From: Sipunculus nudus
Lineage: Eukaryota > Annelida > Sipuncula > Golfingiida > Sipunculidae
Direction of reading: 5' to 3'
DNA length: 64,000 nt
Assembly: GCA_026874595.1 (NCBI GenBank)
Contig: CM049310.1
Location: 32,489,558 to 32,553,557 of the forward strand
The translations under genes were made by a program, and so were the position numbers. The notes beneath the pieces are model-generated. The model searched no databases. It saw only the letters and a list, made by a program, of their open reading frames with translations, and was not told where the DNA came from. This document shows, piece after piece, positions 7,101-10,100 of the stretch (position 1 is the first letter of the stretch; the number at the start of each line of letters is the position of its first letter).

Positions 7101-10100
7101 TCACTGTCCTTCTACACGCCTTGGGTGATATTGAATAAAATTAATTTACCAAAAGGGTAATTACCTTGTCAAAATATTTGTTAAGTTTGTTTCATATTAT
7201 TGTACATTTAAATATAATTGCATTAGACTGAGACAACATTTTGTCCATTTAATATTTGCCTCATCTTTACGGCTCAGCCGGCTAGCCAGCCACAATGTTG
7301 TCCACTCAGCCATCATCATTGTTCTTAAAACTGAGCCGGCTCAGCCGGCTAGCCAGCCATTTTTTCTCCTAGCCAGCTGATTTACTGGTCAACGGCTGGC
7401 TCCCAGGTCTGATGTTTTCTCATGTTATATACTTTGTGCCTAAGTCTTGAAATATGCAAGCACTTTAGGTATCATGATATTTAAGCCTGGTGTTCTCAAA
7501 CGGACCTTCGTCAATGATCAAATCAAATAACTGGAAGTAAAATTAAGATATCAATTTCACAGCAGTACAAATATTATGATTCTAATCATTTTGACATCTT
7601 TTATCATTGACAGAGACTGTGGTTGGAGCATTGGCTCGTGTTCTTCGTGAGGACTGGAAGAGAAGCACGGACCTTGCCACGAACATCATCTATGTCTTCT
7701 TCTGTTTCTCAAGTTTCTCACAGTTCCATGGGGTCATCTCCCATTTTAAGATTGGTGCTCTCACAATGAACATTATCGAGCATGAAATTAAAAAATATGA
7801 TATGTGGTTTGAAGAGTTGCAAAAGAAGAAAAGAGCAGATATCCTTTTAAAACAAATTGAATTAAGGTCGGGTGTCACTGTAATAGTCAAGAAGGGCAGT
7901 ATTACAAATGTAAGGAAATGTTCATTCTTAAATGGAATATCATATTTTAAAATGCTAAAAAGAAGATTCTGCATTGAATACCAAGGAGTCTCTTAGAAGT
8001 GGATTTTTGGGTTGAATTGTGGTTGTATAGAGCTGCTATTAAATTAATTGAATCAGAATTGATAAATTGGTGCCTCTCTAGCAAAACCATAAGAAGAGCA
8101 AGTTAATTTTGTCTTGGATAGCTTTGTTGTAGACCAGAAAGGAGGTACCACCTGCTGTTCTGGTTTTATAGAATACATTGATGCACTTTTTCTCAGTAGT
8201 GGATTGGTGTTGCTGCTTGAAATTTTGCATGGTGTATCCATCTTAAGATCTGTTTTTGGTGACAATTGCACATATATGAGTAGTTTAATCGGCATCACTG
8301 ATGCAACAAATTTGGAGTCATGTCATGTCAGGAACATTCAGTGCTTTACTTTACCCAAGCCTCTGTGACTAGGTGGATACACATAGTTGCCTTTCAACTA
8401 CCTGTTTTCTAGTTTATTTCATGCAGACCATTGTGAGTTTATTTAAAATGTAATCTTTTATTGTTCTGTTGTCTTTATGTCATTTGTGATATTTTTCCTT
8501 GACCTTCCTCACCTGAAACAGACAAGAACAATTCCCAATTGCGGAGGGACTATGAGAAAAGTGTCAAGAAATTCCAAGGTCTTGTTCGGAAACAGGAGCA
8601 GTTACTCAGGGGTGAGTCCTGTCTGTCTTCATAACAGTGATATAAACCTGTTACTTTATATCCAGACAAGAGCTGCTTATGTTCAAACTTGTGTGTACTT
8701 AGTATCAGGGTGTTACTGGTGATCTCTAATTTGACTTGACACATCAGGAGCCTGTTGCAGTATCATTAAGCTAGACTTGAGTCAAGTAGTAGGCCTAAAT
8801 ACCATTGTTACAATTGTGACATTATAATGCTACCCATAGTGACCCAGGTGCCCCTAAACTGAACTGCCCTCAATGACTATACTGGTAGTCACCTTATTGG
8901 AGTGCACCTCGGGGTTTTACTGTTATGTGCATAATTTTTCATAGTATCAGCATGTAGTGTGTTAATTAGACAAAACTAATTACTAGGGCTGTAACAATCC
9001 ATTCTCTCACAATATAATATGTATTGCAATAGCTTGTGCATTATATAATACACGATATAATACACTTATGATATATAATTCACATTCCAGTTTGAATTTT
9101 GCCTTGTTTATAGAAATGTCTAATAAATCTAAAATTAATTTCCATACTATAAATAAAGTTGATTTCTAGATGAATATCCTATTAGAAGCTGTTTAGTTCA
9201 TTTCTTACCAATGACATTTCACCTTAAGGTCTGTTTCTGTGTATGTGTATAAGCATATTTGGGTATATGCTTGAAAAATAGGTGAGTTTCCATGTGCGCT
9301 AATATGCGTATATGTGTGAATTGGCAGATGTATATATTTGTACAGTGGATCAAGCAGGCCTTCCACAAAAAGATGGTGAAATGACGTCATTTTACCCTGA
9401 ATCCCTGAGTTGACGCAGACCCTATGTTTGTTCACGCATATATGCACATACACACATACGCATTTATGCGCACATGGGAACTCCCCTTCAGATGTGTTAC
9501 ATGGTGCTGAGGGCCTGTTTTAAATGTCTGATGTCATTTTCCATGGGATGAGCAAATAATGTCTTGCTATAGGAACACCTGGCAGTACCCATACCATCTT
9601 TGACTTTGTATTACTATGTATTGGTTCACCGGTGTATCATTACAGCACTAGTAATAACTCTGAATCATCACTGTTTGCAGTCTCATTTTATCTGCTGCTG
9701 AATCTGGCTGAGGACCTGAAGGTGGAGATGAAGATGAAGAACAAAAACATCACAGGGATGCTGGTCCGGTGTCTGGAGAGGGACAACTTTGAACTGCTCA
9801 TACTGGTTGTGTCATTCCTCAAAAAACTTAGCATATTTGTGGAAAATAAAAATGAAATGGTGAGCATGGTCCATGTCCTGCTTTTTCTTTATAAATTATT
9901 GGAAGTTTGACTCACTTTTTATCTCTCTTTTAATCTTAGACTGTCAAGTTGCTAGGACATTTAGACTCATTAATAGTGGTTCCGTTTACAGACTATTTTA
10001 ATTGTCCTTATGCTTTATATATTCAAACTAAAACTACTTCAAAGGGAAATTTAATAAATTGATTATGTTACAGTTTGGGACTTTATGATTTGCGGATGGA

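Follow-up and report, generated by a model that had tools for sequence, protein, structure and literature searches.

A predicted U12-type AT-AC intron and a second U12-type intron in the KIFAP3 gene of Sipunculus nudus

In the KIFAP3 gene, the interval 7839-8512 of the window (the whole stretch of 64,000 nucleotides that was analyzed) is almost certainly a true U12-type intron of the AT-AC (A-type) subtype, which the minor spliceosome would remove. This reading is supported by the splice signals and their spacing, by the reading frame, by homology on both sides of the joint, by the weaker standing of the rival readings, and by matches in the same genome to the four minor snRNAs and to CCDC84/CENATAC. 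Another intron of the same gene, at 16261-17040, which the original prediction did not include, is by its signals a second perfect U12-type intron, and both introns look like textbook targets of the minor spliceosome. One point weighed against the U12 reading was that, past 7838, the frame of the upstream exon continues without a stop for 24 codons, as far as a moderate GT donor at 7910. Also weighed were the loss of only 5.6 bits against the KAP profile under a rival joint, the scores of the pair 7910-8595, the variable length of the KAP linker, the U6atac pairing, and the stops in CCDC84 matches, all described below.

The KIFAP3 gene model and its two U12-type introns

The KIFAP3 model was stop-free through all of its 718 residues and 14 exons; the coding start and the C-terminal exons lie outside it. 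It matched the Pfam KAP profile PF05804 over positions 1-708 of 708 with 1239.7 bits, which places the product in the KAP family, and its alignment to the solved KIFAP3 chain 9w9h_C scored 1114.1 bits and spanned residues 12-692 of that chain. Gaps between the model and 9w9h_C were confined to a variable stretch at about chain residues 100-113, and there were none at either U12-type joint. The features of the gene that are discussed here are as follows:

1013..17814, + strand: KIFAP3 model, 14 exons, 718 aa, 11 ordinary GT-AG introns and two U12-type introns, Pfam KAP PF05804
7614..7838, + strand: KIFAP3 exon (fourth in the model) 5' of the AT-AC intron, ending KKKRA in phase 1; open frame, match to 9w9h_C
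7839..8512, + strand: predicted U12-type AT-AC intron (intron 4 of the model), 674 bases, phase 1, AT and AC termini, no mismatches at +3..+8 or at the branch site
7839..7847, + strand: 5' splice site ATATCCTTT of the AT-AC intron, read directly
8495..8503, + strand: branch-point sequence TTCCTTGAC, read directly, with putative branch A at 8502, 10 bases from the intron end
8513..8611, + strand: KIFAP3 exon 3' of the AT-AC intron; frame, match to 9w9h_C, gene model
16162..16260, + strand: KIFAP3 exon 5' of the second U12-type intron, ending IIIKDT
16261..17040, + strand: predicted second U12-type intron, GT-AG subtype (intron 12), 780 bases, phase 1, no mismatches at +3..+8 (GTATCCTTG) or at the branch site
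17021..17029, + strand: branch-point sequence TTCCTTAAC, read directly, with putative branch A at 17028, 12 bases from the intron end
17041..17126, + strand: KIFAP3 exon 3' of the second U12-type intron; gene model, match to 9w9h_C

Beyond the model, an open reading frame at 26686-26871 on the + strand resembles a KIFAP3 C-terminal exon by eye; it had no Pfam match.

The donor consensus of U12-type AT-AC introns is ATATCCTT(T). In U12-type introns ATCCTT is expected at +3..+8 and TTCCTTRAC at the branch site, and the distance from the branch site to the 3' end is usually short. Introns were scored by counting mismatches to ATCCTT and TTCCTTRAC, and not with a published weight matrix. In direct reading, exon position 7838 is followed by ATATCCTTTT, and the bases on either side of 7838/7839 are AAAAGAGCAG and ATATCCTTTTAAAAC. 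At the other end TTCCTTGAC (8495-8503) is followed by CTTCCTC and then by AC (8511-8512), after which the exon starts with CTGAAACAG; the bases on either side of 8512/8513 are thus TTTTTCCTTGACCTTCCTCAC and CTGAAACAG. The original prediction had claimed an AT-AC intron with perfect U12 signals whose branch motif is followed by seven bases and AC, and the termini, the motifs and the spacing at 8495-8512 were all read as it described. The interval therefore has a U12-type donor, a branch site near the 3' end and an AC terminus, and its flanking exons join in frame. Over the whole window, ATATCCTTT and TTCCTTGAC are each present as one + strand copy and one - strand copy.

The two U12-type introns stand out within the gene, because the other 11 of its 13 introns are not U12-like: all 11 are GT-AG introns with two to six mismatches at +3..+8 and three or four at the best branch-site match, and only 7839-8512 (AT-AC) and 16261-17040 (GT-AG) had no mismatch in either the donor or the branch site. 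The second intron combines a GTATCCTT donor, a TTCCTTRAC branch site and an AG end with a preserved frame, as in the GT-AG subtype, and its joint 16260/17041 was ungapped against 9w9h_C. Other joints for this intron were rejected. The equal-length GT-AG joint 16282-17061 scored 5.3 and put unrelated residues in place of the conserved TQAPAYLID. Of 34 GT-AG pairs that were in frame and open, the highest-scoring one reached 8.7 and deleted conserved residues.

The rate at which such signals pair by chance was estimated by searching both strands of the window for a perfect U12-type donor together with a branch site and a matching terminus, with an intron length of 60-3000 bases and a distance of 8-20 bases from the branch A to the intron end. 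Two distinct perfect pairs were found, and both lie at the homology-defined KIFAP3 joints. The same search in 200 dinucleotide shuffles gave a mean of 0.045 pairs, with one pair in nine of the 200 shuffles and two pairs in none.

Rival readings of the 7838/8513 joint

The product of joining 7838 to 8513 was colinear with 9w9h_C and ungapped over 167 of 167 residues (264.3 bits). A genome search with this 167-residue piece gave three matches, each of them an exon within this window; neither a further copy nor a retrocopy of the piece turned up. According to the original prediction, similarity stops at KKKRA where no GT exists. This is true only at the point where similarity ends, because the frame remains open past 7838 through a GT donor at 7910 and runs on to a stop at 7994-7996. 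A GT-AG reading is therefore possible in principle, and the sites that it could use were scored with a matrix built only from the 11 ordinary GT-AG introns of this gene, whose leave-one-out sums ranged from 5.4 to 20.0. Two possible cryptic sites came into consideration:

7910..7915, + strand: GTAAGG within the AT-AC intron, a possible cryptic GT donor, score 5.0, frame open
8594..8595, + strand: AG within the exon 3' of the AT-AC intron, a possible cryptic acceptor whose frame agrees with donor 7910; the pair 7910-8595 has a sum of 10.1

The most direct rival is a GT-AG intron of the major spliceosome at 7910-8526, with the U12-like motifs present by chance. The join 7909/8527 is in frame and without a stop, the matrix built from this gene gives its donor AATGTAAGG a score of 5.0, and its product retains the Pfam KAP match at 266.1 bits, only 5.6 bits less than the 271.7 bits of the AT-AC product. 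However, the acceptor scores -6.0 and brings the sum to -1.0, which is under the range of the ordinary introns, and the product gains 24 residues and loses five; its alignment with 9w9h_C comes in two separate pieces and scores 236.9 bits, down from 264.3. Use of 7910-8526 would also leave perfect and rightly spaced U12 motifs unexplained, and this rival was judged extremely improbable.

The linker encoded at the AT-AC joint was said to have exactly the vertebrate length; it does equal that of 9w9h_C, for which the species is not given, but it differs from that of 9ikb_G, a more distant KAP chain, which is without 16 residues of linker at this joint. Given this shorter linker and the small difference on the KAP profile, linker length alone does not settle the matter. 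The claim that any GT-AG reading adds unrelated residues does not hold throughout: some of the GT-AG readings delete residues instead.

One reading of the latter kind, 7910-8595, underlies a different possibility, in which removal of the U12-type AT-AC intron predominates and the major spliceosome uses 7910, joined to 8595, for a minor or stress isoform. This pair is in frame and open, makes the product a net four residues shorter, and has a sum (10.1) within the ordinary-intron range. It would, however, excise a conserved stretch, and since it was picked as the highest scorer among 58 in-frame GT-AG pairs that stay open, chance may account for its strength. The accessible text of PMC8280824 reports that depletion of CENATAC activates alternative major sites at A-type introns, and for this reason 7910-8595 was retained as a product that might arise cryptically or under stress, though use of both spliceosomes here seems unlikely. 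An extension of this idea is also unlikely: a splicing switch in which the slow A-type intron competes with the in-frame major route from 7910, while the G-type intron 12 forms another gate in the same transcript. If such a switch did exist, the activity of the minor spliceosome would set the level of normal kinesin-2 adaptor and so the ciliary transport of the cell.

AT-AC termini do not in themselves point to the minor spliceosome, since AT-AC introns of the major spliceosome exist, and 85 of them or of related subtypes were followed in PMC8280824, as far as its available text goes. Against an intron of this type at 7839-8512 stand the +3..+8 and branch motifs, which are perfect for U12, and the scores of the AT-AC sites on the major-intron matrix, -4.7 and -1.7, although that matrix penalizes any AT or AC end. 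A major-spliceosome AT-AC intron can hardly be credited here, and the U12-type AT-AC intron remains the preferred reading.

Several other joints were tried and rejected. Taking 8522 as the exon start breaks the frame when it is joined to 7909. An AC at 8519 would fit the branch spacing rule, but it lies 7 bases farther on and, as inferred from the coordinates, the frame is broken. Equal-length alternatives sought within 40 bases yielded two joints with canonical termini; the other one, 7856-8529, begins with ATTGAATTA, which is not a U12 donor. The AT-AC intron also contains an AG acceptor at 8425-8426 with a score of 8.4, and when it is read in frame from 7910 a stop follows, by eye, after eight codons.

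Minor-spliceosome components and their pairing

All four minor snRNAs were matched in the genome, which was searched over 1.43 Gb in 153 contigs; the counts of these snRNA matches are lower bounds. Hits above the Rfam cut-off numbered at least two for U12 (best 118.6 bits), at least one for U11 (108.7 bits), at least two for U6atac (best 100.5 bits), and at least one for U4atac (88.4 bits). None of these four RNAs was matched in 14 control genomes, a result that carries little weight on false matches in animals. The window itself had no Rfam match at the gathering threshold. The Pfam family PF14968 (CCDC84, which is CENATAC) was matched over its cut-off by four stretches within 35 kb on contig 17, and two of the four contain stops, which may be intron sequence. 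Both the full set of four minor snRNAs and CCDC84 are thus represented by matches in the host genome.

The order in which U11, U6atac and U12 make their contacts is established. In the proposed route the 5' splice site of 7839-8512 would be read by U11 and then by U6atac, U12 would pair with TTCCTTGAC, leaving A8502 bulged as the branch adenosine, and the intron would end at the AC ten bases past that adenosine. That the cell splices 7839-8512 by this route we infer from these elements of the sequence. The pairing was examined with one copy each of U12 (L001, the other match being L002), U11 (L007) and U6atac (L008, the other match being L009), following the generally known pairing scheme, and was compared with 5000 random 7-mers or 8-mers drawn from the window.

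Positions +3..+9 of the AT-AC donor formed six Watson-Crick pairs and one GU pair of seven with U11, which was equalled or beaten by 32 of 5000 random 7-mers. With U6atac the same positions formed six Watson-Crick pairs of seven, equalled or beaten by 268 of 5000, and the U6atac pairing of this donor is not distinctive. The donor of intron 12 formed five Watson-Crick pairs and one GU pair of seven with U11 (equalled or beaten by 844 of 5000 random 7-mers) and five of seven with U6atac (2235 of 5000); because so many random 7-mers do as well, donor pairing gives no support there. The branch sites of both introns can pair with the U12 RNA of this genome. That of intron 4 formed seven Watson-Crick pairs and one GU pair of eight with A8502 bulged, and eight Watson-Crick pairs with G8501 bulged, while that of intron 12 formed eight Watson-Crick pairs of eight with either A bulged. 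These levels were reached by 22 (intron 4, A8502 bulged) and seven (intron 12) of 5000 random 8-mers, which had no choice of bulge, whereas the real branch sites were tried with two.

Relation to known introns and other features of the window

The AT-AC intron shows no difference in kind from known U12-type AT-AC introns: it has the same AT and AC ends, the same ATATCCTTT and TTCCTTRAC motifs, the same short distance from branch site to intron end, and phase 1. Likewise, 16261-17040 does not differ in kind from U12-type GT-AG (G-type) introns, with which it shares GTATCCTT, TTCCTTAAC, the AG end and phase 1. Both introns are thus in phase 1, and the available text of PMC10639083 gives the order of minor-intron phases in animals and plants as 1 > 2 > 0. 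AT-AC introns had been put forward as rare, which is correct, but they are a well-known class, making up about 22% (PMC6717393) to 26% (PMC10639083) of human minor introns in the parts of these papers that were available. Minor introns are also described in the latter as relatively enriched in several protostome groups, molluscs included.

Two minor introns in one gene are likewise known from the mammalian SCN and CACN1 genes, according to the accessible part of PMC2831892; the present case differs from genes of that type in that one intron is A-type and one is G-type, and in that the gene encodes a kinesin-2 adaptor. The available portion of PMC6717393 counts 50 human genes with two minor introns and three genes with three, out of 714. 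The in-frame GT donor inside the U12-type intron also recalls twintrons, in which two intron types share one position (accessible text of PMC3564746). Unlike in twintrons, the partner acceptors here are either weak (8526) or inside a conserved exon (8595); the overlapping U2-type candidates have sums of -1.0 for 7910-8526 and, cutting the conserved exon, 10.1 for 7910-8595.

No tie between KIFAP3 and minor introns was found in the literature text that was searched, and none of the papers listed for Kap3 carried the names Kap3, CG11759 or kinesin associated protein. Supplementary tables were outside this search, so KIFAP3 may have been listed earlier as a minor-intron gene. KIFAP3 is not named in the available text of PMC10639083 or PMC8280824, nor is kinesin in that of PMC13216214, PMC6717393, PMC7644725 or PMC2952598, and the only hits for KIFAP3 were an ALS review, in which it and minor splicing come up separately, and a retina paper. 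A pattern search of genome contigs, made with a different segment of the protein, gave 15 matches, none of which was a relative. With U12-type signals and minor-spliceosome RNAs in the same genome, the KIFAP3 AT-AC intron appears to be a well-supported new example of a class that is itself already known.

The predicted introns settle two joints in the model of a conserved motor-adaptor gene at which automatic annotation may err. A transcript with one A-type and one G-type minor intron would also offer a natural internal comparison for A-type factors such as CENATAC, which acts mainly on A-type introns according to the accessible text of PMC8280824. If vertebrates shared either intron, this would link KIFAP3 with the ciliary aspect of minor-spliceosome disease.

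Elsewhere in the window, similar peptide stretches in the list of open reading frames recur on both strands at 34685-36207, suggesting a repeat. The - strand carries probable exons of an SLC6-type sodium:neurotransmitter symporter at 52276-52566, where a 64-residue piece matched Pfam PF00209 (E 1e-14), and at 56183-56368, which by eye only resembles the N-terminal part of the same symporter.
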